Shown: piece by piece, positions 1,792 through 11,944 of the stretch
Position numbering within the stretch: position 1 is the first letter of the stretch
How the letters are laid out: each line of letters opens with the position of its first letter
Origin: a filamentous cyanobacterium CCP2
Lineage (GTDB): Bacteria > Cyanobacteriota > Cyanobacteriia > Elainellales > Elainellaceae
Reading direction: 5' to 3'
DNA length: 47,658 nt
Assembly (NCBI GenBank): GCA_003003615.1
Contig: PVWD01000012.1
Location: 1 to 47,658, forward strand
Notes under the pieces: generated by a model
Told to the model about the DNA's origin: nothing
What the model saw: only the letters and a program-made list of their open reading frames with translations
The model's database searches: none
Program-made: the position numbers and the translations under genes

Positions 1792-2889
1792 ATGCACTGG
1801 ACTGTTGCAGCTTCGTTTATTCATGATCTGAATCTAAGTACGTCTGCCTGGCTGACCCCTCATGTTACGAGTGGGCGGCATCAGTTTACCATTATTCCAC
1901 GTCGCGCACCGCTTGCCAGTTGGCACACCCGCAAAACATCGGTGACAAACCGCAAAGAATGGATGGATCATTGGCTCCAAGGCAGTGAAGCCCTTCAGAG
2001 AACTCATGGCGGGGTCATTACGGTGTTTCCACAGCTTGCATCTGCCGTTGGGATGCAAAAGCAGCTATCCCGTAAGCAAACTCCGATCGTTGCCTGGTTG
2101 TTTAATGTGGGGACTTGCTCTTCCGGGATGCGGCGGCAGTTTGCTAAAAAGAGCTTGCAGGCGATCGATCGGTTTGTTGTGCATACTCAGCGCGAACGGC
2201 AAATCTACAGCGAATGGCTAGACTTACCCATTGAACGGTTTGAGTTTGTGCCTTACCAAGTTCCAGAAATGCCGGTAACGTATGCTGAAAACACTACTGA
2301 ACCGTTTATTACGGCCCTTGGGTCTGCCCATCGAGATTTTCCTGCCCTCTTCCAAGCGGTCAAAACCCTCAACATTCCAACGGTGGTGGCCGCTAGCAGA
2401 CGATCACTGGAAGGTGTGAGCATTCCTGATCAGGTGCAAACTCCGTTTGACATTGGTAAACAAGATTGTTTGCGCCTTGCCCAAGAAGCGCGGATTAATG
2501 TTGTGCCGATGGTTCCGAATGAGCGTGTCACTGCTGCCGGACAAGTGACCATTGTCGAAGCAATGCGGATGGGTCGTGCTTTAATTGCAACTCGCTGCAA
2601 TGGAGCCGAGGATTACATCATTCACGGTGAAACGGGTTTGCTCGTGGAACCGCACTCCGTTGAAGACCTGACGAACGCCATCCAGCAGCTATGGGAAGAC
2701 CATGAACTGCGCGATCGGTTGGGACAGAATGCAATGCAGTATGCAACCGAGCATTTTTCTGATCAGGCGGCCGGTGCAGCCCTGGGCAGAATTTTGGATG
2801 AGGTTGCCAGTCAAGTAGGGGGCAAGGTTTCCTTCCGTTCTGCTTCACCAACCAATGGACATTCGTTTGCTCGGTTGACTCCACCATAA
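1792..2889 (+). CDS. Glycosyltransferase family 4 (GT-B fold), 365 aa
   Basis: A second GT-B glycosyltransferase, probably acting on cell-surface polysaccharide or glycolipid. The C-terminal donor-binding half is clear: VTIVEAMRMGRALIATRCNG (E-x7-type motif), GAEDYIIHGETGLLVEP, and a closing helix region LRDRLGQNAMQYATEHFS. The N-terminal half is divergent. It contains VVHTQRERQIYSEWLDLP, typical of the acceptor domain end, and ITALGSAHRDFPALFQAV at the domain junction. The start ATG has GAGGAA about 8 nt upstream. The last 30 residues are low-complexity and may be a disordered tail. The gene stands alone, with a strong terminator hairpin at 3044-3068 downstream. Donor and acceptor are unknown. 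Confidence 0.85.
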   Translation: MHWTVAASFIHDLNLSTSAWLTPHVTSGRHQFTIIPRRAPLASWHTRKTSVTNRKEWMDHWLQGSEALQRTHGGVITVFPQLASAVGMQKQLSRKQTPIVAWLFNVGTCSSGMRRQFAKKSLQAIDRFVVHTQRERQIYSEWLDLPIERFEFVPYQVPEMPVTYAENTTEPFITALGSAHRDFPALFQAVKTLNIPTVVAASRRSLEGVSIPDQVQTPFDIGKQDCLRLAQEARINVVPMVPNERVTAAGQVTIVEAMRMGRALIATRCNGAEDYIIHGETGLLVEPHSVEDLTNAIQQLWEDHELRDRLGQNAMQYATEHFSDQAAGAALGRILDEVASQVGGKVSFRSASPTNGHSFARLTPP

Positions 2890-3043
2890 TAGGTAAGTCA
2901 GATTGCTTAACCCAAAAAACATCATCAAGCATAACGACATGGCAACGGATGAAACATTAGAACAGTTTCAGGGATCTAAACCCAAAGCGGATTAGAACCT
3001 ATAACTTTTGATGATTTTCTTCCTACTGCCATAATCTTCTTCG

Positions 3044-3070
3044 AGGGGTTTTGCCATGCAAGACCCCTTT
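3044..3070. terminator. Strong hairpin between convergent genes
   Basis: An 11-bp stem (AGGGGTTTTGC with GCAAGACCCCT, one G-T pair) closes a 3-nt loop at 3055-3057 and is followed by TTT. It lies between the GT4 gene ending at 2889 (plus) and the TPR gene ending at 3126 (minus), so it may serve both. The rest of 2890-3125 holds nothing recognised. Confidence 0.6.
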
Positions 3071-3125
3071 CCTATTGCAAGCGAAACCAGTGCCACAATC
3101 AATGCTATCTTTTGTACTAATTTAT

Positions 3126-3530
3126 CTAGGTTGTGATCAGCTTTCGCTTCAGCCAAATATCATCTCTCGCATGTAAATAGCGCGGATCAGGATTCAATTC
3201 GATCGCCCGTTCATAGGATTCGATCGCATTTCCATACGCCATCATTTCCGCCAGCAATAAACCGCGATTAAACCAAGCTTGATGATAGTCAGATTGCAGT
3301 GCAACAGCTTTGTCATAGGAGGCAAGAGCTTCTGCATAACGCTTCATCCCACACAGGGCATTACCGCGATTATTCCAGGCTTTGCAATAGTTCGTATCCA
3401 GTTCGATCGCTTTATCAAAGGCGGCGATCGCTTCTTTATATTGTTCTGCTTCACACAATGCACAACCCTTTCCATCCCAAAACTCTGGATGAGTTTGCTC
3501 CTGATCAAAATGATTCATCGTGATATCCAT
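3126..3530 (-). CDS. Small three-repeat TPR protein, 134 aa
   Basis: The product consists almost entirely of three tetratricopeptide repeats, at about residues 16-49, 50-83 and 84-117. Canonical positions are visible in AWNNRGNALCGMKRYAEAL, AWFNRGLLLAEMMAYGNAI, and the terminal AIELNP. TPR superhelices mediate protein-protein contacts; no catalytic domain is present. ATG at 3530 and ATG at 3518 are both possible starts, and no strong ribosome site decides between them. The gene closes the minus-strand accessory island, downstream of the HicAB module and a heptanucleotide array. It is related in kind to the TPR part of the large STAND protein but lacks that protein's terminal 40 residues. Confidence 0.85.
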   Translation of the reverse strand: MDITMNHFDQEQTHPEFWDGKGCALCEAEQYKEAIAAFDKAIELDTNYCKAWNNRGNALCGMKRYAEALASYDKAVALQSDYHQAWFNRGLLLAEMMAYGNAIESYERAIELNPDPRYLHARDDIWLKRKLITT

Positions 3531-3615
3531 TTTTCGTCCACTACAGTTCCATTCTGAGCGGTGGAACAGCGATCGACTGGAGGGATTTCTGGACTGAGCA
3601 GATTCGGTAATTTGG

Positions 3616-3694
3616 TAATGGGTAATGGGTAATGGGTAATGGGTAATGGGTAATGGGTAATGGGTAATGGGTAATGGGTAATGGGTAATGGGTA
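3616..3694. repeat. Heptanucleotide tandem array (TAATGGG), about 11 copies
   Basis: A perfect 7-bp tandem repeat runs for about 79 bp in the noncoding gap between the small TPR gene and a TPR-tail remnant. Such arrays are common in cyanobacterial intergenic DNA and vary in copy number by slippage. A minus-strand frame through it gives a meaningless LPITHYP repeat. Confidence 0.95.
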
Positions 3695-3710
3695 GTAAAG
3701 GTATCTTCTT

Positions 3711-3781
3711 CGATCGCCAATGCTAGAGCGCGATCGCAATACTCAAGGCGCGATCGGTTTTTCCTATTTTCTGGTACAGCT
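3711..3781 (-). pseudogene. TPR-tail remnant T4 (frameshifted copy of STAND gene 3' end)
   Basis: Read on the minus strand, this stretch matches the 3' region of the STAND-TPR gene (5668-5742), including GGAAAAA.CGATCGCGCCTTG and ATTGCGATCG. One base is missing (TTGAG for TTGGAG), so the frame breaks and meets TAG. It starts 7 bp after the HicB stop codon. It is the outermost of four tail copies in the island. Confidence 0.7.
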
Positions 3782-3787
3782 ATTCAA

Positions 3788-4000
3788 TCAAGCAAACATT
3801 AAACGCCCTTTCGGTTCTGGAATGGGTCGTCCAAGCTCTTTTGCTGTTTCGATCCATTCCTGAATAATGATTTCGGCATTTTGCACTGCTTCTTGATAGG
3901 TTTCTCCATCTGCGGCACAACCTGGCAATTCTGGCACTTCCACAATAAAGGCTTGATCTTCTTCACTCCAATAAATAACCATTTCATACCGAATCTTCAT
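3788..4000 (-). CDS. hicB: HicB-family antitoxin, 70 aa
   Basis: This is the antitoxin of a type II HicAB pair. HicB neutralises the HicA RNase by direct binding and often autoregulates. The sequence shows the HicB partial RNase H-like fold: a first strand pair (IRYEMVIYWSEEDQAFIVEVPELPG), the signature PELPGCAADGETYQEAV, and a helix with AEIIIQEWIETAKELG ending PIPEPKG. No C-terminal DNA-binding domain is present, so this is the short form. Its ATG lies inside the hicA 3' end (17-bp overlap), indicating translational coupling, with the toxin gene first as is usual for hicAB. A TPR-tail remnant follows directly. Confidence 0.9.
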   Translation of the reverse strand: MKIRYEMVIYWSEEDQAFIVEVPELPGCAADGETYQEAVQNAEIIIQEWIETAKELGRPIPEPKGRLMFA

Positions 4001-4250
4001 CTTGACCCCCTAATTGATATTTCAAAATTACATTGCGAACTTGTTTAACTTGATAGGCTTTGGCTTTTCCTTGTTTCGGTTGTAGGTTAAGAATATCCTC
4101 AACATCTTCTTTAGTAAAAATATGATGGCTACCTTGAATTCGCTCTACAAAACCTAGATTCTTCAACAGCGTGCATAGCGGCTCAAAAGGAATATTAGAA
4201 TCAGATGTTCCTCTCAGGATTTTAATTAATAGTTTATTTTGTTGACTCAC
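3984..4250 (-). CDS. hicA: HicA-family toxin, 88 aa
   Basis: The product is an mRNA interferase with a double-stranded RNA-binding-like fold. The catalytic histidine region is present as QGSHHIFTK, preceded by the helix LCTLLKNLGFVERI and followed by ILNLQPKQGKAKAYQVKQVRNVI. The N-terminal stretch LIKILRGTSDSNIPF is longer than in E. coli HicA. The start is a GTG at 4250 with GAGGGAAG just upstream; the nearby ATG is out of frame. It overlaps hicB by 17 bp. A TPR-tail remnant (T3) ends 17 bp before its start codon. Confidence 0.88.
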   Translation of the reverse strand: MSQQNKLLIKILRGTSDSNIPFEPLCTLLKNLGFVERIQGSHHIFTKEDVEDILNLQPKQGKAKAYQVKQVRNVILKYQLGGQDEDSV

Positions 4251-4267
4251 CTTCCCTCATTTGCGTC

Positions 4268-4394
4268 CTAATGCTCTTTCCCATTTTGTTCCTCCTCTAG
4301 CTGTTGTTTCAGTTCTTCACACTCTTTCACTAACGGAATCCTCAACTCGATCGCCAATGATAAAGCTCGATCGCAATACTCCAAGGCGCGATCG
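4268..4394 (-). pseudogene. TPR-tail remnant T3 (in-frame copy of STAND gene 3' end)
   Basis: On the minus strand this encodes DRALEYCDRALSLAIELRIP and then LVKECEELKQQLEEE before a TAG. It is closely parallel to the last residues of the STAND-TPR protein (DRALEYCDRALELAIELGIP). It has no start codon or upstream TPR body. It lies between the RelE stop (4412) and the HicA start (4250). Confidence 0.75.
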
Positions 4395-4411
4395 CATCCT
4401 CAAAATCATTG

Positions 4412-4684
4412 TTACAAATCCCGATAAACCTCACGACGATGCCGAACATAGTGAATTAAAACCCGTTTAATTTCTGTATCAACTTCATAAACAATGCGAT
4501 AATCGCCCACTCGAATTCGATAAAGACTTTCAGTACCTGTAAGTTTGACAACTTGAGAGGGTAAGGGTTCATTCCTCAGCCCTATAATCCTAGCCAAAAC
4601 ACGATCGCGGTTTTCGGATGATAACTTACGTAAATCTTTCTCTACGGATGGTTGAAAAGCAATCTCATACTGCTCCATGTTCAT
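4412..4684 (-). CDS. RelE/ParE-family toxin, 90 aa
   Basis: This is the toxin of a type II pair, probably a ribosome-dependent mRNA interferase of the RelE group. Features in order are the start strand YEIAFQPSVEKDLRKL, the helix ENRDRVLARIIGL, and the strand core SLYRIRVGDYRIVYEVD followed by VLIHYVRHRREVYRDL. The basic residues of RVGDYR and RHRREVYR match the RelE active face. It overlaps the upstream antitoxin gene by 20 bp. ATG at 4678 (MEQYEIAF) is an equally good start. Target and activity are inferred from the family. Confidence 0.9.
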   Translation of the reverse strand: MNMEQYEIAFQPSVEKDLRKLSSENRDRVLARIIGLRNEPLPSQVVKLTGTESLYRIRVGDYRIVYEVDTEIKRVLIHYVRHRREVYRDL

Positions 4685-4883
4685 CTAACCGCTTCTGCAT
4701 CTCTTCTAAGCTGATGGGTTGCTCTTGATGTCGTTCTGCCACGATCGCCAAATCATGAAGGTCTTCTAACAATTGCTCATATTGCTCAATCGCCAGAATC
4801 ACTGCCGTTTTGTTGCCGTTTGCATCAATAATGTACTGCTCTTGCAAAGAGTTCGTAACTGAGTTTTCTGAGTTTGTAGTCAT
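4665..4883 (-). CDS. Phd/YefM-type antitoxin, 72 aa
   Basis: This antitoxin partners the RelE-type protein encoded directly downstream. The N-terminal half carries the Phd/YefM-like element YIIDANGNKTAVILAIEQYEQLLEDL, which usually forms a DNA-binding dimer. The C-terminal half (ERHQEQPISLEEMQKRLDEH) is the acidic flexible helix that wraps the toxin. The order is antitoxin then toxin, with overlapping ends, as is normal for this class. The start at 4883 is the first ATG after a degraded TPR-tail remnant ending at 4908, so little native promoter space remains. Confidence 0.88.
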   Translation of the reverse strand: MTTNSENSVTNSLQEQYIIDANGNKTAVILAIEQYEQLLEDLHDLAIVAERHQEQPISLEEMQKRLDEHGAV

Positions 4884-4907
4884 CGTAAGAAGTTCCTCTT
4901 TGATGCT

Positions 4908-5015
4908 CTATCTTTCATTTTCTAATTGAGCTTTCAACTCCTCACACTCTTCCACCAATGGAATCCCTAACTCGATCGAAGGCCAACGCTTGCAATCCTG
5001 TTGCGCCCGATCGGT
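4908..5015 (-). pseudogene. TPR-tail remnant T2 (partly decayed copy of STAND gene 3' end)
   Basis: On the minus strand the last 23 codons (IELGIPLVEECEELKAQLEN then ER and TAG) are nearly identical to the STAND protein C-terminus. The preceding codons are scrambled by small deletions. The remnant begins about 5 bp after the DUF4926 stop and ends 25 bp before the Phd start. Confidence 0.75.
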
Positions 5016-5019
5016 TGCC

Positions 5020-5259
5020 TTAACTCTCAACTAGGATTGGTTCATACGTGAGAAGCATTAACTGTGTAGTGGGAACTGTTTCCATTGCATAAGTTTCTCC
5101 TTGAGCATCGGCAAAATCAACCAGATAAGCCTGATCATTAAAACTCATGAGAACTGTGCCAACCTGCCCATGTCTTAGCAAAATGGGCTGCTTTGTTTCT
5201 TTATGAATTGCTCGGATTTCATCTGTTAAAGCAACAACATCATACTCTTTGATGGTCAT
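5020..5259 (-). CDS. DUF4926-like small protein, 79 aa
   Basis: A small protein of the DUF4926 type, whose function is not established. The start at 5259 is chosen over 5292 because AGGAG sits at 5266-5270, overlapping the stop codon of the upstream DUF6883 gene. The sequence is an SH3-like strand-rich barrel pattern: YDVVALTDEIRAIH, then RHGQVGTVLMSFNDQAYLVDF, then AQGETYAMETVP. It is translationally tied to the DUF6883 gene, and the two look like one functional unit. A toxin-antitoxin or immunity-like role is only a guess from position and size. Confidence 0.75.
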   Translation of the reverse strand: MTIKEYDVVALTDEIRAIHKETKQPILLRHGQVGTVLMSFNDQAYLVDFADAQGETYAMETVPTTQLMLLTYEPILVES

Positions 5260-5269
5260 AGTTAGCTCC

Positions 5270-5605
5270 TCAATGATTGACAGGATAAGCATTGGTTAAT
5301 CTAGGGAAATCTTCACCCGTGCGAACAATCCAACATCCCAATACCAGAGATGTTCCGATCGCAGTTGTCATAGAAAATTTAACATCATAATGAGTTCCAT
5401 ATTGATCGGTTCTATAGATTATTGCTTCCTCTCTGACGGCTGATTCCAGTAACGCAGCTTCTAAAATTTCTTTGTTTTCTAATGTAATCCCTAAACGATT
5501 TCTAAACATAATGGCTTTGTCTTTACCTTTAGGATGTTGCAAGTTTAGTGAATATCGTTCCAGCTTATTGCCCAGTTCTGCCCGATCGCCATTTGGCAAT
5601 TTCAT
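5270..5605 (-). CDS. DUF6883-like protein, 111 aa
   Basis: A small protein resembling the DUF6883 family, whose role is unknown. Visible features are MKLPNGDRAELGNKLERYSL at the start, the conserved HPKGKDKAIMFRNRLGI, and the strand-rich end YDVKFSMTTAIGTSLVLGCW with IVRTGEDFPRL. Its ATG overlaps the stop of the 950-residue STAND-TPR gene as ATGA, so translation should be coupled to that gene. The DUF4926 gene follows and has its ribosome site inside this gene's stop region. The three genes therefore form one tight transcriptional and translational unit. Confidence 0.75.
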   Translation of the reverse strand: MKLPNGDRAELGNKLERYSLNLQHPKGKDKAIMFRNRLGITLENKEILEAALLESAVREEAIIYRTDQYGTHYDVKFSMTTAIGTSLVLGCWIVRTGEDFPRLTNAYPVNH

Positions 5606-8454
5606 AGCTCATTCTCCAACTGAGCTTTCAACTCCTCACACTCCTCCACTAACGGAATCCCCAACTCGATCGCCAATTCCAATGCTCGATCGCAATACTC
5701 CAAGGCGCGATCGATTTTTCCTAATTTTTGATGTAGTTCTGCTAAGTTTTTGAGGACTTCGGCTCTCAGAGAACGATTTCCAGTCTGATTGCAAATTTCT
5801 AGAGCATTTTGCAACGCTTCCAAAGCGTCTGTATGTCGCTCAATCTTAATTAATACTTTTCCAAGTCCACACAAAGCATGGCTTTCTGTGCTTTGATCAC
5901 CAATTTCCTTTGCAATAGCTAGCCCCTGATTCCGTAATTCAATAGCTTTAGAATTATTGCCCAAATTGCAATAAGTATCACCCAAATTACCTAATGCAGT
6001 TGCTTCTCCCTGTCGATCGTCAATTTCACGAGCAATGATTAAACGTTGCTGACAAAGGTGAATGGACTGCTGATACTTGCCTAGAGCGTTATAAGCGTTT
6101 CCCAAACTACCGAGTGCATTGCCTTCTCCCCGACGATCGCCAATTTCTTGTGCAATAGCTAAGTGTTGCTTATGGAACTCGATTGCCCGATAATATTTTC
6201 CCAAGGAGCAGTAAGTAACCCCTAAATTGCCAAGGGCAACACCTTCCCCCTGTTGATCACCAGTTTCTCGTGCAATAGCTAAGTGTTGATGGTAAAAATT
6301 GATTGCCCGTTGATACTCACCCAAGTTGTCGTAAATCGATCCCAAGCTACCGAGTGCATTACCTTCTCCTCGCCGATCACCAACTTCACAAGCAATGGCT
6401 AAGTATTGTTGATGAAATTTAATCGCCTGCTGATACTCACCTAAAGCGTTGTAAAGATTCCCCAAATTGCCGAGTGCAGCACCTTCTCCCTGTCGATCGC
6501 CAGTTTCTCGAGAAATGGCTAAGTCTTGCTGAAGGAATTCAACTGCCCGTTGGTACTTGCCAATAGAGCGGTAAGCAATCCCCAAGCTACCGAGTGCAGC
6601 ACCTTCTCCTTGTCGGTCACCGATCTCACGTGCAATGGCTAAGGCTTGTTGAAGTATTTCAATAGCCTTAAAATAGCTACCTAAGCTTTGATAGACATTA
6701 CCTAAATTATTCAATGCCCTCCATTGCCCGTGTAGATCATTAATTTCTTGGGCAAGCTTGAAGCTTTGCTGATAGTAATCAACTGCCTGAGCATATTGGC
6801 TTAGAAGGGTATAAGCATTGCCCAAACCTTTGATACAAGCCACTTGATCCACATCTTGCAGATGTCCCAGCAGACGGTGATGTAGCCGGATCATCTCTTG
6901 GTAGTGTCCCCAGGTTTGTAGTTGCAATCCAATACCTTGATCCAACAGAATCACTTTTGCTGCTTGCCAATCTTCAAGTTCACAGTAATGCTCAAAGGCT
7001 TCTAGCTTGCCTCGGATTTTTTCCAGGTTAGGGATGTCAGGATCAGGCTCATAAGCTGTTAACCAAAGTTCAGCCGCTTGGCGTTCGGCAGCTTTCCAAA
7101 TAGGAGCATCTTCTCGCAGCAAGTCGTGAGCAATATCTCGGATTAAGTTGTGCTGACGAATATCAGTATCCTCTTTCTCAATCAAAGCCCGATCGCTCAA
7201 AGCCTGATAAGCTAACTTTTGCTGATTAAGAGAACGATCGCCAATCATCGCCAGCCAGAATTTTTTAGGAACAGGACGACGAAATACGGCACTACGGCAG
7301 AGCAAATCTAGTGCATCTGTTGGCAGTTGTTTCAGAGATTTCTTGATGCGTTCTCGAACTTTGCGATCGAGGGCTTCATTGTATTCTGTTTCGTCGAGGC
7401 GGGCGGCTTGTAGTTCTCTAGCGACTTGCTCAAATTCCGGTTGGTAAACCTGCCAGTAGCGAACCACATCCCCAGCAAAATCCTGCAAAATATCCTCGGC
7501 AATGACCTTCAGTACCAGAGGATGACCTTCATAAATTTTGGCGATTTGGGTAAGGATATCCTGATTAGCAGGTTCTACAGAAATTCCCCGTTTGGCGAAG
7601 AATTCGAGTTGCTGTTCTACTTGCAATAAGCCATCCAGCCGAATTTCTCTCCAAGCATTAGGGTAGCGATCGCCAAACTCAATCAGCGCATTGGGAAACG
7701 CCTGGGAAGTCAATACCAAACGACTGGCGAAAGGGGAATCCGTCAGGCAACGCTGAAGAAAAGTTACCCAGTATGGATCAACAAATTCGCTAGGCTGTTC
7801 AGGATTGAGTAACCGTTCCAGCGCATCAAGCTGTATCCAGTAGGATTGGGATTGCAGCTTTTGCAACAGTCGTTTCGCTAACTGCTCAGGATTATTCCGC
7901 TCTTTGGGGTCAAGGTCAGGCTCCCCCAGCCTGGCTAGCAGATCAGCCGCAATAGAGGGAAAATCTGGACTTTGCCCCTCAATTTCCAGATAGATCCATT
8001 GAAAAGTCGGATCGCGCTCCCAGGCTTTACTAACCAGGCATTCTCCTAAAGTCGTTTTGCCGATTCCAGAAATTCCTGTAATCCACAGCAACCGAGTTTG
8101 TCCTTGCAATTTGGGTAAAAGCTCAGTAACCAATGATTCTCGCCCAACCCAGGTTTGCCCATCGTAGGTTGATGGCATTGGAGGAGTCGGCATGATGTTG
8201 CCGGATTTTAACCGCCTTTCCAGTGCCCCTCTAAAACTCGTCTTGCCAACTTTCTCTCCCAATGCCTCAGAAAGTAAGTCCCACAGCTTTTTGCCCTCAT
8301 TTTTGATGTGTTGAGGTGCGTAGCCTTCCATCTGCTCATAGCCTTTGCCGTCCAGAGATTCCCGCAAAATCATGCGCTGAATATCCGTTAAAGAGCTACC
8401 CGTATGAGCAAGTAACACCTCATCAGCGACTTGAATAGCTTCCTCTGGGGGCAT
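5602..8454 (-). CDS. NB-ARC/STAND ATPase with N-terminal HTH-like domain and long TPR array, 950 aa
   Basis: A signal-transducing ATPase of the STAND class. Residues 1-85 form a helical HTH-like domain seen at the start of many cyanobacterial NB-ARC proteins. The NTPase follows, with Walker A GISGIGKTT at 127-135, Walker B WIQLDALE around D210, sensor RLVLTSQ near 250, GHPLVLKVI at 310-318, and a winged helix ending RQHNLIRDIA (MHD-like). Residues from about 545 to the end are TPRs of the 40-residue type, repeating cores such as GDRQGEGAALGSLG. The DNA repeats with 120-bp periodicity, suggesting recent amplification. In this family the TPRs sense a ligand and the ATPase oligomerises; no obvious effector domain is fused. 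The stop overlaps the DUF6883 start. A small membrane protein is divergent upstream. Confidence 0.9.
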   Translation of the reverse strand: MPPEEAIQVADEVLLAHTGSSLTDIQRMILRESLDGKGYEQMEGYAPQHIKNEGKKLWDLLSEALGEKVGKTSFRGALERRLKSGNIMPTPPMPSTYDGQTWVGRESLVTELLPKLQGQTRLLWITGISGIGKTTLGECLVSKAWERDPTFQWIYLEIEGQSPDFPSIAADLLARLGEPDLDPKERNNPEQLAKRLLQKLQSQSYWIQLDALERLLNPEQPSEFVDPYWVTFLQRCLTDSPFASRLVLTSQAFPNALIEFGDRYPNAWREIRLDGLLQVEQQLEFFAKRGISVEPANQDILTQIAKIYEGHPLVLKVIAEDILQDFAGDVVRYWQVYQPEFEQVARELQAARLDETEYNEALDRKVRERIKKSLKQLPTDALDLLCRSAVFRRPVPKKFWLAMIGDRSLNQQKLAYQALSDRALIEKEDTDIRQHNLIRDIAHDLLREDAPIWKAAERQAAELWLTAYEPDPDIPNLEKIRGKLEAFEHYCELEDWQAAKVILLDQGIGLQLQTWGHYQEMIRLHHRLLGHLQDVDQVACIKGLGNAYTLLSQYAQAVDYYQQSFKLAQEINDLHGQWRALNNLGNVYQSLGSYFKAIEILQQALAIAREIGDRQGEGAALGSLGIAYRSIGKYQRAVEFLQQDLAISRETGDRQGEGAALGNLGNLYNALGEYQQAIKFHQQYLAIACEVGDRRGEGNALGSLGSIYDNLGEYQRAINFYHQHLAIARETGDQQGEGVALGNLGVTYCSLGKYYRAIEFHKQHLAIAQEIGDRRGEGNALGSLGNAYNALGKYQQSIHLCQQRLIIAREIDDRQGEATALGNLGDTYCNLGNNSKAIELRNQGLAIAKEIGDQSTESHALCGLGKVLIKIERHTDALEALQNALEICNQTGNRSLRAEVLKNLAELHQKLGKIDRALEYCDRALELAIELGIPLVEECEELKAQLENEL

Positions 8455-8508
8455 GGCTTAAAGTCAGGTTTCAGAAACAGCAGTTGACTCGATAATAACC
8501 TTACTTTT

Positions 8509-8525
8509 TCGGAACTTCTCGGAAC
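8509..8525. promoter_or_regulatory. Direct repeat TCGGAAC, 10-bp spacing, in divergent promoter
   Basis: TCGGAAC occurs at 8509-8515 and 8519-8525, one helical turn apart. This is the 125-bp gap between the STAND gene (start 8454, minus) and the small membrane gene (start 8580, plus). It may be a regulator site; no regulator is identified. Confidence 0.3.
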
Positions 8526-8579
8526 GACAGAACTGGAGCGGATTGTGAGAATTGAATCATTGATTAAGAGGTCACTGAA

Positions 8580-8762
8580 ATGAGTCAACAACAACTGGTA
8601 TCAACCCAACAAACCGCCCCTCACGCCTCCATTGATCCTGAACCGATCGCCCAGTCCGAATCTCCAACCGCAATTATCCTGGCAATCGCTATTCTACTCT
8701 CAATCTCGATCGGTTCCATTACCCAACTCGTGCAGGTGATCTTGACCACAAAAAAGCCCTGA
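8580..8762 (+). CDS. Small single-pass membrane protein, 60 aa
   Basis: No family is recognised. The product has a polar N-terminal part (residues 1-28, rich in Gln, Ser, Pro) and one strong transmembrane segment at about residues 30-54 (AIILAIAILLSISIGSITQL), then a short basic end TTKKP. GAGG lies about 8 nt before the ATG. The gene is divergent from the STAND ATPase with only 125 bp between starts, so the two may share control. A membrane partner for the STAND protein is possible, but this is inference from location alone. It is followed by intergenic repeats, not by another gene. Confidence 0.6.
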   Translation: MSQQQLVSTQQTAPHASIDPEPIAQSESPTAIILAIAILLSISIGSITQLVQVILTTKKP

Positions 8763-8828
8763 CTAAAATGGGCGATCGACAGGCTCAGATGAACCGGACA
8801 GTCAAAACTCCTGAATCCGACTACTTAG

Positions 8829-8863
8829 CTGACTGGGCGGGCAAGATGCCCACCCCACAAGAG
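8829..8863 (+). repeat. Dispersed palindromic repeat, arm B only
   Basis: The stretch GACTGGGCGGGCAAGATGCC followed by CACCCCACAAGA is the same as arm B at 955-997 and 26175-26216. No arm A is nearby, so this copy is a half element. Confidence 0.8.
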
Positions 8864-8907
8864 GAAAGTGGAAAGCAGAGAGCAAAAGATAACCAGGCTT
8901 TATTTCT

Positions 8908-8966
8908 AACTCCTGGCTCCTGACTCCTGACTCCCGACTCCCCACCCCCAACTCCCGACTCCCTAC
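8908..8966. repeat. Low-complexity CTCCTGACTCCCGA tract
   Basis: Irregular tandem copies of CTCCTGACTCC/CTCCCGACTCC abut the stop codon of putA. A similar tract lies at 43957-43995. Tracts of this kind are frequent in cyanobacterial intergenic DNA. Confidence 0.8.
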
Positions 8967-11944
8967 TGCTCCGCCCCCTCGATCGGCGCAAATCCCTGCC
9001 GTTGCACGTTTTCGCTAATGTGTCGCGGTTCCAGGAATTGCAGCAGATAGTCTGGGCCGCCTGCCTTGGAGCCGACTCCGGAGAGTTTGAAGCCGCCAAA
9101 GGGTTGACGAGCCACGATCGCCCCGGTGATGTGACGGTTGATGTACAGGTTGCCCACCTCAAAGTCCTCCTGGGCCCGCTGAATGTGGGAGGGGGTGCGG
9201 GAGTAGAGTCCTCCAGTCAGACCATAGTTAGTGTGGTTGGCAATGTCGATCGCCTCGTCGAATGTACTGGCTCGGATCACAGACAGGACGGGGCCAAAGA
9301 TTTCCTCCTGGGCGATCGTTCCCGTGGGGGAAACATCGGTGAAGATCACCGGGCCAACGAAGAATCCAGGGTCAGGAGCAGGGAGTTCTAACGCAATGGT
9401 CGCTTCCTGTTTGCCTTTTTCAATGTATTCTTGAATTCGCTTTTGGGCGGCTGCGTCAATCACCGGCCCGACCTGGGTGCTGGGGTCTTCTGCGATGCCA
9501 ATGTTGAGCGATCGCGTCGCTTCAATGAGTCGCTTCACGAACATATCGTAGATGGGTTCAAGAACGATCACCCGCGAGCAGGCCGAACACTTTTGACCAC
9601 TGTAACCGAACGCTGAATAGACAACGCCCTGAACCGCCTGATCCAAATCTGCACTCTCATCGACGATAACGGCATTCTTGCCGCCCATTTCCGCAATCAC
9701 CCGCTTCAGGTGCTTCTGTCCCGGTTGCAGGTCTGCCGCATCCCGGTAAATCTGACAGCCGACTTCCTGGGAACCCGTGAAGGCAATCATATGAACATCG
9801 GGATGCTTCACCAGGTATGCGCCAACGGTGGAACCCTTACTGGGCACATATTGAAATACGCCCTTAGGAATGCCTGCATCCACCAAAATTTCGGTAATTT
9901 TCGCCGCAATAACGGAGGAGGTTTCCGCCGGTTTCAGTAAGGTACAGTTTCCAGTAACGAGGGAGGCCACCGTCATGCCCACTGGAATGGCAAGAGGAAA
10001 GTTCCAGGGCGAAATCACGACGCTAATCCCTCTGGGTTGGTAATGGTAGCGATCGGTTTCACCGGATACATCATAGCTGTGTCCTCGATCGAGCCGTTCC
10101 ATTTCCTCAGCATAGTAATTGCAAAAGTCGATCGCTTCTGACACCTCTGGATCGGCTTGGTGTAATGGTTTCCCAGTTTCCAAGACCATCCAGGCACAGA
10201 GTTCCTCCCGCCGTTGCTCCATCAGATTTGCCGCCCGTCGCAGGATATCGGCTCGATCGCGGGCAGGGGTTTTCTTCCAGCCTCGGAAAGCTGCCTTGGC
10301 CGCCTGAATTGCTTGCTCTGCCTGCTCCATACTCAACAGTCCAATCTGTCCCACCACTTCCTCTGGATTGGAGGGATTGACGGAGTTGACATAATTTAAG
10401 GTATTGACCCGCTCTCCATTCACTAGCGGGAGGTAAGTTTTGCCCAACTGTTCCCGCACCGATCGAATCGCCGTAAAGGCCCGATCGCGTTCTTCAGTAA
10501 TGGAAAAGTCTGTGTCTGCCGAATGTTTAAAGCCATTGTGGGGAATGGTTTCGGAGAATGCCCAGGGGGATTCCATTTCGGGGGGAGCCAGTAATTCTTC
10601 CACCGGACGCTCCTCCAGGTTTTGCCGCAGGAAGGAGGTATTCGCGGTGTTTTCCAGCAGGCGACGAATCAGATAGGCCATACCGGGAATCAGTTCACCA
10701 TAGGGGCAGTACACCCGCACCCGGAAACCCTCATTCACCAAAGCTTTCGCCAGTTTATCCGCCATGCCGTACAGCACTTGCAGCTCAATCCGTCGCGCCG
10801 GAATCTTTAGCTCTCTAGCAATGGCGATCGCATGGGACTGGGAACGGACATTATGACTGCCGATCGCGGCATAGAGATATTCATGATTCTCCAATAGTCG
10901 GCGGGTCAAAGCTTCAAAGCTGGCATCTGTGGAAGACTTGTGGGCAAACACCGGATTCTGCCAGTCATGCTGGATCGCCTTAATCGTCTCCTGATCCCAA
11001 TAGGCTCCCTTCACCAGTCGCACAGTGACAGGCTTACCCCGCCGTTTGGCCCACTCAATCCAGCGTTCCAGATCCTGCTCGGTATCCCGCAGATAGGCCT
11101 GTAATGTGACTCCAATATCCGTCCGATCGCGGAACTCCTCCTCCATCAGCAGATCTTGCAGGATAGAAATGGTCAGGTCTTTGTAGGTGTACTGTTCCAT
11201 ATCAAAGTGAACGGCTGCCCCCAGTTCCTTGGCTCGTCTGAGCAGCGTCCGAATCCGATCGATCACCCGCGCCTGGCTGCCTTTTGGATCAAGTGGATCA
11301 AACTGGGAGTAAAAAGCCGTCAGCTTGACTGATACCTGCACCTTGGGCAAGGGTTCACCGTCCGCCTGATCGATAATTGGAACTGTAGACCAGCGTTTTG
11401 AGGCTTCGGTGAGTTCCTCCATTAAGTTGAGATAGCGCTCGAGGTAAGATTGGGCCTCCACTTCGGTAATCACGGCTTCCCCCAGCAGATCCACCGTAAA
11501 GCCCATCTTGTCTTTCCGCAGATGCTCGATCGCCTTCAGGACTTGCTTCACATTCTCCCCGGCAATATATTTCCGCGCCAGGGTTTCTACCGCCGTTGAA
11601 ACCGTAGTCGCTGCCGCCTGTCCGGGCAAAGAATCGGGGCTGGCAAACCCCAGCATTCCCTTTAAGGCTCCCGGCAATTCCACCGACTCATCGCTTAAAT
11701 ATTCTTGAAGATGACGGGCAATCTCCGCCTTACTCCGCAAAGATGGCAAGCAGTCAATGAAGCGAAACAACTGCACCCGCAACCCCGGATTACTCATTGC
11801 CCAGGCCAACATTTTGTCATCCCAACGCATTTGATCCCGCATTTGGGCAAAAATCGATCGACTTTCCCGCGTCACCTCCAAAAGATGTCGGGCGATCGTT
11901 TGGGTTTGGGATTCGTAGGTGCTTTCAGAAACTTGTACAACCAC
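8963..11944 (-). CDS. putA: Bifunctional proline dehydrogenase / glutamate-semialdehyde dehydrogenase PutA, 993 aa
   Basis: PutA oxidises proline to glutamate in two steps. An FAD-dependent TIM-barrel domain makes P5C, and an NAD-dependent aldehyde dehydrogenase domain oxidises glutamate semialdehyde. The N-terminal half shows the proline dehydrogenase signatures VSVKLTAFYSQFDPLDP, HFDMEQYTYKDLT, RLVKGAYWDQE and RVYCPYGELIPGMAYLIRRLLEN. The C-terminal half has PWNFPLAIPVGM, FTGSQEVG, AEMGGKNAVIVD (catalytic Glu) and GYSGQKCSACSRVIV (catalytic Cys), ending in the FGGFKLSG motif. The 993-residue length matches cyanobacterial PutA without the E. coli RHH DNA-binding domain, so it should not be its own repressor. 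It appears monocistronic. Confidence 0.96.
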   Translation of the reverse strand: MVVQVSESTYESQTQTIARHLLEVTRESRSIFAQMRDQMRWDDKMLAWAMSNPGLRVQLFRFIDCLPSLRSKAEIARHLQEYLSDESVELPGALKGMLGFASPDSLPGQAAATTVSTAVETLARKYIAGENVKQVLKAIEHLRKDKMGFTVDLLGEAVITEVEAQSYLERYLNLMEELTEASKRWSTVPIIDQADGEPLPKVQVSVKLTAFYSQFDPLDPKGSQARVIDRIRTLLRRAKELGAAVHFDMEQYTYKDLTISILQDLLMEEEFRDRTDIGVTLQAYLRDTEQDLERWIEWAKRRGKPVTVRLVKGAYWDQETIKAIQHDWQNPVFAHKSSTDASFEALTRRLLENHEYLYAAIGSHNVRSQSHAIAIARELKIPARRIELQVLYGMADKLAKALVNEGFRVRVYCPYGELIPGMAYLIRRLLENTANTSFLRQNLEERPVEELLAPPEMESPWAFSETIPHNGFKHSADTDFSITEERDRAFTAIRSVREQLGKTYLPLVNGERVNTLNYVNSVNPSNPEEVVGQIGLLSMEQAEQAIQAAKAAFRGWKKTPARDRADILRRAANLMEQRREELCAWMVLETGKPLHQADPEVSEAIDFCNYYAEEMERLDRGHSYDVSGETDRYHYQPRGISVVISPWNFPLAIPVGMTVASLVTGNCTLLKPAETSSVIAAKITEILVDAGIPKGVFQYVPSKGSTVGAYLVKHPDVHMIAFTGSQEVGCQIYRDAADLQPGQKHLKRVIAEMGGKNAVIVDESADLDQAVQGVVYSAFGYSGQKCSACSRVIVLEPIYDMFVKRLIEATRSLNIGIAEDPSTQVGPVIDAAAQKRIQEYIEKGKQEATIALELPAPDPGFFVGPVIFTDVSPTGTIAQEEIFGPVLSVIRASTFDEAIDIANHTNYGLTGGLYSRTPSHIQRAQEDFEVGNLYINRHITGAIVARQPFGGFKLSGVGSKAGGPDYLLQFLEPRHISENVQRQGFAPIEGAEQ

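Follow-up and report, generated by a model that had tools for sequence, protein, structure and literature searches.

The 3' end of a gene encoding a STAND-type NTPase with tetratricopeptide repeats (TPRs) probably acts as a recombination anchor for small toxin-antitoxin-like cassettes in cyanobacteria. The starting point is a 47,658-nucleotide stretch of DNA from the filamentous cyanobacterium CCP2 (assembly GCA_003003615.1, contig PVWD01000012.1, positions 1 to 47,658 of the forward strand), referred to here as the window, in which a STAND-TPR gene on the minus strand is followed by three two-gene modules with copies of the gene's own end placed between them. The arrangement is real and recurring, and it is best read as the exchange of cassettes at the end of the STAND gene. 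Below, the gene end is called the tail, and genomes, contigs and loci that have to be told apart are given by their G, C and L handles.

The gene-end array of the window

The protein encoded by the head gene matches NB-ARC (1.7e-06, above the cut-off) and TPR_12 (1.2e-64) in Pfam, and in PADLOC it matches TPR models together with two weaker candidate models. The combination of an NB-ARC/STAND-type NTPase domain with a repeat sensor is that of a STAND NTPase, which the head protein is by its predicted domain content. Behind the gene follow, in order of their Pfam families, DUF6883 with DUF4926, a RelB-like protein with a ParE/RelE protein, and HicA with HicB (Table 1). The second and third of these bring together adjacent toxin and antitoxin families, as is characteristic of type II systems.

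When the 141-bp gene end was searched against the whole 6.95-Mb genome, the remnants T2, T3 and T4 matched it at 89% over 64 bp (E 2.4e-17), 89% over 88 bp (E 4.7e-26) and 86% over 65 bp (E 4.2e-14), respectively, and the next best match had an E of 0.04. Because the strong matches are confined to this locus the gene-end copies are real, and a dispersed repeat was rejected as their origin since all four strong tail copies in the genome lie here. An assembly artefact is also unlikely, given that such loci occur on chromosome-size contigs of the Microcystis genomes G389 (C1, 5.84 Mb) and G390 (C1, 4.29 Mb); the one-contig genome G085 (C1, 4.73 Mb) bears one as well.

The initial annotation, made from the sequence of the window, had described this layout of a STAND-TPR gene and three modules with gene-end copies between them, and the sequence, the open reading frames (ORFs) and the genome-wide search bear it out. 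It had also described T3 as readable in frame and T2 and T4 as decayed, which holds: T3 reads DRALEYCDRALSLAIELRIPLVKECEELKQQLEEE, T2 aligns with a 2-residue gap and an altered 5' part, and T4 matches the gene end in two frames. Its account of the boundaries, with each remnant beginning shortly after the preceding module and ending shortly before the next, stands as regards the close spacing and is corrected as regards the exact distances. The remnants begin 7, 17 and 8 bp (T2, T3 and T4) after the preceding stop codon, the RelB-like start lies 24 bp from the T2 stop codon and the HicA start 38 bp from the last homologous base of T3, and T4 precedes a heptamer repeat rather than a module. This repeat (TTACCCA on the minus strand) runs to eleven to twelve copies at 3614-3694 of the window, close behind T4, and may have cut the far end of the array. 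An Rfam scan of positions 2500-9500 matched no RNA element.

Table 1. Positions in the window of the head gene, its 3'-end copies and the modules behind it.
Feature	Position	Strand	Remarks
STAND-TPR gene, head gene of the array	5602..8454	-	ORF of 950 aa; NB-ARC/nSTAND-type NTPase, many TPRs
T1, intact STAND gene 3' end (141 bp)	5602..5742	-	TGA overlaps ATG of the next gene
DUF6883, predicted toxin	5270..5605	-	Pfam 1.3e-23; model resembles CDI, BrnT and RelE toxins
DUF4926, putative antitoxin partner	5020..5292	-	Pfam 4.2e-17; mechanically called ORF, likelier start 5259
T2, STAND 3'-end remnant	4908..5015	-	Homology 4914-5012, stop codon 4908-4910
RelB-like/Phd antitoxin	4665..4883	-	PF18506 3.4e-09
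ParE/RelE-type toxin	4412..4684	-	PF05016 1.9e-10
T3, STAND 3'-end remnant	4289..4411	-	High identity 4289-4394; 80% over 122 bp, 4290-4411
HicA toxin	3984..4250	-	PF07927 1.3e-06
HicB-like antitoxin	3788..4000	-	PF15919 3.0e-11
T4, frameshifted STAND 3'-end remnant	3709..3779	-	Lacks the last ~64 bp of the gene end

Probable exchange at the gene end in Microcystis

Signs that modules have moved relative to the STAND gene come from Microcystis, where the tail is present in 7 of 12 genomes. The DUF6883-DUF4926 pair lies behind an intact STAND gene in G389 and behind a tail remnant in G390, and the two sequences are 88-100% identical per 25-bp bin, mostly 100%, from 75 bp before the STAND stop codon to about 1.2 kb after it. 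Upstream of this shared block identity falls to 92% in the next bin and to 64% in the two bins before that. The same pattern is found over shorter stretches for Phd, which lies behind an intact STAND end in G388 and a remnant in G389 (72-100% per bin), and for HicB, behind an intact end in G391 and a remnant in G396 (84-100% per bin). In all three comparisons the shared block consists of the module and the last ~75-100 bp of the STAND gene, with the homology ending inside the tail. The converse is seen between G390 and G396, which share the upstream flank and the remnant at 95% and diverge at the remnant's end into RelB or HicB. To judge from these alignments a cassette has the last ~75-100 bp of the gene attached at its left side, the block of gene end and cassette is common to an intact STAND end in one genome and a remnant in another, and one upstream sequence with its remnant can precede different cassettes.

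The STAND gene itself also varies. In G396 one gene combines the STAND N-terminus with a different C-terminus and is followed ~0.23 kb later by a tail scar, and G390 holds a different large gene followed by a similar scar. A Microcystis gene of this kind, sharing the N-terminus of the tail-bearing STAND gene but not its C-terminus and followed by a tail scar, was noted under L142 (5244-9005) and L138 (7940-8256). The sensor half of the STAND gene may be exchanged as well, and STAND bodies are also lost or replaced.

In the five Microcystis genomes without a strong tail, homology to the flank beside an sdhA-like gene (named by eye) ends at one and the same point, and nothing in the fetched stretch beyond that break matches the STAND genes of G389, G390 or G393, the contig of G395 ending ~0.7 kb past the break. 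Traces are left in two of them. G397 has a DUF433/DUF5615-type gene with a scar resembling the tail at 70% and, over 195 bp, a match to the HicB region of the G389 array; G398 has a 217-bp match to the stretch between XisH and XisI of G389. Since five genomes do without a strong tail and some keep such traces, the whole island is optional, and debris of it may stay behind. Short array stretches in Microcystis genomes without the STAND gene lie at L205 (4145-4605) and, on the minus strand, at L206 (2484-2700); they are possibly debris of a lost island.

Association of tails and modules in other cyanobacteria

How general is the layout? A profile built from 11 tails picked up 11 of 116 genomes of the class (E <= 1e-6), 34 tail loci came from a scan of named genomes, and a DNA search of 388 genomes, with at most two candidates scored per genome, found a match in 7. 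The counts below refer to 51 distinct tail-bearing loci, which were picked for carrying tails and are no random sample; further records of contigs already counted (L058, L060, L063, L066, L067, L081, L082, L101, L120 and L140) were omitted. Module families outside the Pfam-scanned proteins were named by similarity to those proteins or by eye. At least two tail copies are present in 14 of the 51 loci, two of them on chromosome-size Microcystis contigs, with L079 included although its second copy is a second, tandem gene.

Relatives of all three window modules were found behind such tails elsewhere. For instance, the TIR-STAND-TPR gene of L067/L088 has behind it a HicA-HicB pair of the same family as in the window, an 88-aa-type gene without family assignment, a remnant of the tail and a Phd/RelE-like pair (by eye) whose second gene is apparently broken. 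L118 has five tail copies, with no STAND gene within the 2.3 kb of contig preceding them, and these separate a Phd-PIN pair, a pair of an unknown gene with DUF2283, a DUF4258-DUF2283 pair and a transposase-like gene. A Cyanothece metagenome-assembled genome (L099) has the order tail, DUF433-DUF5615, tail, and L076 the order STAND, HicAB, XisI, tail, DUF4926. Single tails stand ahead of a RelB/RelE-like pair in L059 and with no labelled module in L057. Beside the tails at L065 (8611-8871), L088 (8599-8829), L068, L084 and L099 lies a protein of 80-105 aa with a LSTLLTELGEECEK-like sequence; its L065 copy had no Pfam match at E <= 0.001.

The association can be put into numbers. One of 72 tail copies, with fewer than 400 bases behind it, is not counted here. 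The start of a labelled module lies within 200 bp of the tail for 23 of 43 intact copies and for 17 of 28 remnants; of the other genes in these loci that are 200 aa or longer, 2 of 275 have a module start so close. The contrast is inflated by module labels that were derived from these very loci. Independent of any label is the recurrence of a gene's last 150 bp within 5 kb downstream, which was found for 8 of 33 tail genes and 5 of 240 others once L137 (961 aa), misfiled because its tail had gone unscanned, was moved (7 of 32 and 6 of 241 before). A 900-bp query gave a match in 10 distinct single-gene loci, and in these the remnants correspond to no more than the last 188 bp of the gene; the L067 remnant has an extra 34 bp of internal TPR repeat, and three L062 matches inside TPR repeats were dropped. 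Of 28 remnants 24 have a same-locus match, and 19 of these score best with the tail of their own locus when compared with the tails of other groups; the other four of the 28 stand alone in their loci.

The first slot and a proposed mechanism

Directly behind the STAND gene the spacing is tight, with 11 of 23 first modules starting between -17 and +2 nt of the end of the STAND stop codon (ATGA in the window), although L080, one of the eleven, has no start codon at the assigned position. Because first modules repeatedly overlap or touch this stop codon translational coupling is suggested, and a first-slot cassette is probably co-translated with the STAND gene. All six module ORFs in the window are open, so that expression of the displaced pairs may continue from start codons of their own. 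A promoter kept in the tail was considered and rejected, the scan giving 4 promoter-like sites against 6.1 expected and hence no excess.

In the mechanism proposed, RecA-type homologous exchange between gene-end copies would swap or add cassettes. An incoming gene end with its module would recombine with the STAND gene's own end, such that the intact gene would gain a new 3' end with its reading frame kept, and the former cassette would be shifted downstream behind a useless gene-end copy, which would then decay. Less certain is what the cassettes do. They might be type II toxin-antitoxin pairs, with addiction stabilising the island, and they might act as interchangeable effectors of the STAND protein. 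A further proposal makes the gene end an expression site, at which recombination with the downstream archive would switch the pair that is translationally coupled to an immune ATPase; this is doubtful, but if it were true a population would vary its defence effector much as is done by Rhs loci or surface-antigen cassettes.

Alternative explanations

Several observations weigh against cassette exchange at the tail as a full account. Only one tail is present in 37 of the 51 loci, 20 of 43 intact tails lack a labelled module in the neighbouring 200 bp, and 5 of the 24 remnants have their closest tail in another group. Approached from the modules, a tail lies upstream in only 5 of 30 HicA loci and 2 of 30 DUF6883 loci, where the window is counted in both, 30 loci each were fetched of 40 and 85 listed module places, and L194 has just 88 bases upstream. 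A direct repeat of some part of the upstream 250 bp was found within 1.5 kb in 18 of 60 module loci, the repeated part mostly being something other than a tail; the figure includes tail loci and one self-match (L194). Modules mostly live away from tails. In the Microcystis arrays 45 of 210 ends of high-scoring segment pairs fall within tail intervals where 9% would be expected, in rows that are not independent of one another, and most boundaries lie elsewhere; many cassettes move without a tail. The junctions that the initial annotation had placed at the tails are found there in the three Microcystis comparisons, whereas most array breakpoints are not. Its hotspot collecting toxin-antitoxin-like modules behind a STAND ATPase is upheld by tails in other genera with modules directly behind them, and the relatives of the window modules among these speak against chance copies confined to this genome.

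Could the array have arisen with no exchange of cassettes at all, from tandem STAND-TPR genes that each had a downstream pair and then lost their bodies by deletion? Tandem STAND-type genes do exist in L079, a seemingly broken STAND gene (by eye) lies upstream of the tail in L083, the L067 remnant keeps its extra piece of TPR repeat, and tail scars lie ~0.25 kb behind the G396 gene with the STAND N-terminus and the different large gene of G390. However, the tandem genes of L079 have no labelled modules behind them, and the remnants, the L067 piece excepted, stay within the last ~190 bp of the gene. In the Microcystis comparisons, moreover, one module follows an intact end in one genome and a remnant in the other, and the breakpoints lie inside the tail. 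This origin is considered unlikely. Of the two routes offered initially, insertion at a duplicated tail and loss of tandem bodies, exchange by homologous recombination inside the tail is supported over the second by the Microcystis alignments, with body loss or replacement also seen in G396 and G390.

A site-specific element, integron-like or driven by an integrase, could likewise attach at the gene end and duplicate the site with each insertion. Islands integrate at the 3' ends of genes, and an insertion at the gene end that restores the gene would resemble this. Three integron-type integrase genes score above the cut-off in the genome, and among ten folded single strands the plus strand of T2 (z -4.3) and one L118 tail (z -3.3) fold better than all 200 of their shuffles. 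But the other eight strands have z from -2.3 to 0, no integrase matches on the window's contig, the tails have no fully complementary RYYYAAC/GTTRRRY pair by a crude test, their best match to the three integrase contigs is a 25-bp stretch of T2, and the duplicated length varies. Site-specific recombination is not supported, and such an element is highly improbable. The three integrase genes lie on contigs C98, C53 and C357 of the window's genome (G000), with no obvious attC arrays nearby in the fetched stretches.

Pure hitchhiking is a different matter, since it is compatible with the exchange mechanism and disputes function only: toxin-antitoxin genes would gather behind many gene ends, of which the STAND end is one safe site without a functional tie. 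The chance of this being so falls only a little short of even. DUF6883 lies 8 bp behind a comM-like gene in L187 and L193 and 12-17 bp behind a methylase-like gene in L175, L176 and L178, HicA lies 3-4 bp behind another type of TPR gene in three loci, one of them with just a gene fragment (all of these genes named by eye), and the scarcity of tails upstream of HicA and DUF6883 loci (5/30 and 2/30) points the same way. Against it stand the enrichment behind tails (23/43 versus 2/275, biased in that the labels come from these loci) and the repeated start/stop overlap.

Nature of the DUF6883-DUF4926 module

DUF6883 is a predicted toxin by its modelled fold only, with DUF4926 as its putative partner. 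A structure model of DUF6883 built from 21 sequences has a mean predicted local distance difference test score (pLDDT) of 96. The best relative among solved folds is the contact-dependent inhibition (CDI) toxin domain 6cp9 (Z 11.1, 2.3 A over 102 residues), with a second CDI toxin next (Z 8.9 and 7.7) and a Salmonella toxin-antitoxin complex and the BrnT, RelE and HigB toxins further down (Z 6.3 down to 4), where a Z under 8 can reflect merely a common arrangement. We take the fold to be RelE/barnase-like. Foldseek with the same model gave a best E of 0.0017 and no match at E <= 0.001, and single-sequence searches of solved structures with DUF6883 alone and DUF4926 alone found no relative at E <= 1. 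A DUF6883 profile gave only weak resolvase matches to solved structures, at E 0.25 or worse, and these were set aside. Taking predicted fold and position together, DUF6883 is likely the toxin and DUF4926 the antitoxin.

Relation to known systems

A close parallel is with orphan Rhs-CT/RhsI units, in which displaced toxin/immunity units downstream of the main rhs gene carry a fragment of that gene which enables homologous recombination (PMC3967940). The displaced modules described here likewise come with a fragment of the main gene, the STAND 3'-end remnants. In Rhs the C-terminus of the main protein serves as the toxin, whereas the modules here are separate ORFs after the STAND stop codon, and the displaced pairs keep their own start codons; the Rhs fragment (522 bp, 95%) is from the main coding region before the toxin, while here the fragment is the main gene's own 3' end. 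Recombination of the main gene with a displaced fragment is supported here by the tail-internal breakpoints between Microcystis genomes, with no such event observed inside a single strain. In polymorphic toxin and CDI systems one recombination event, at the 3' tip of a gene that itself stays constant, imports a toxin with its neutralising partner (PMC3482391). The solved fold nearest to the DUF6883 model is a CDI toxin domain, but no toxin is fused to a trafficking protein here and the constant gene encodes an NTPase with TPRs.

In multicellular bacteria, NTP-dependent conflict systems, including STAND, TIR and related forms, have changing effectors and some have recruited toxin-antitoxin parts (PMC7159879); the available text on conflict and STAND systems makes no mention of gene-end copies or cassette arrays (PMC7159879, PMC8195603). 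The initial annotation had known of no described system with this layout, and searches of the open-licence PubMed Central literature likewise showed no description of gene-end copies between toxin-antitoxin modules. Integron cassette arrays carry toxin-antitoxin genes too, and resemble the present array in having small interchangeable units between repeats; in contrast, no attC-like box pairs were found in the tails by the crude test above, and the contig has no integron integrase match.

Cassette exchange at the ends of immune-type ATPase genes would offer a concrete route by which cyanobacteria gather many toxin-antitoxin genes, and would carry the principle known from displaced Rhs/CDI cassettes over from secreted toxins to toxin-antitoxin-like pairs that stand free inside the cell. 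With the gene-end scar as a sequence handle, effector genes that have been exchanged could be traced together with the partners they once had. The arrangement also makes the link between STAND proteins and toxin-antitoxin pairs directly testable.

Other gene ends

The cassette principle may extend past one gene family, for example to the ends of other TPR genes. On the minus strand of L170, at about 1219-2025, ~270 bp of the end of a different TPR gene are followed by HicAB and then by another fragment of that end. This gene has 42-aa-type repeats, and represents a second type of gene end with the same layout. In L169 and L171 HicA lies 3-4 bp behind a TPR gene of the L170 type.

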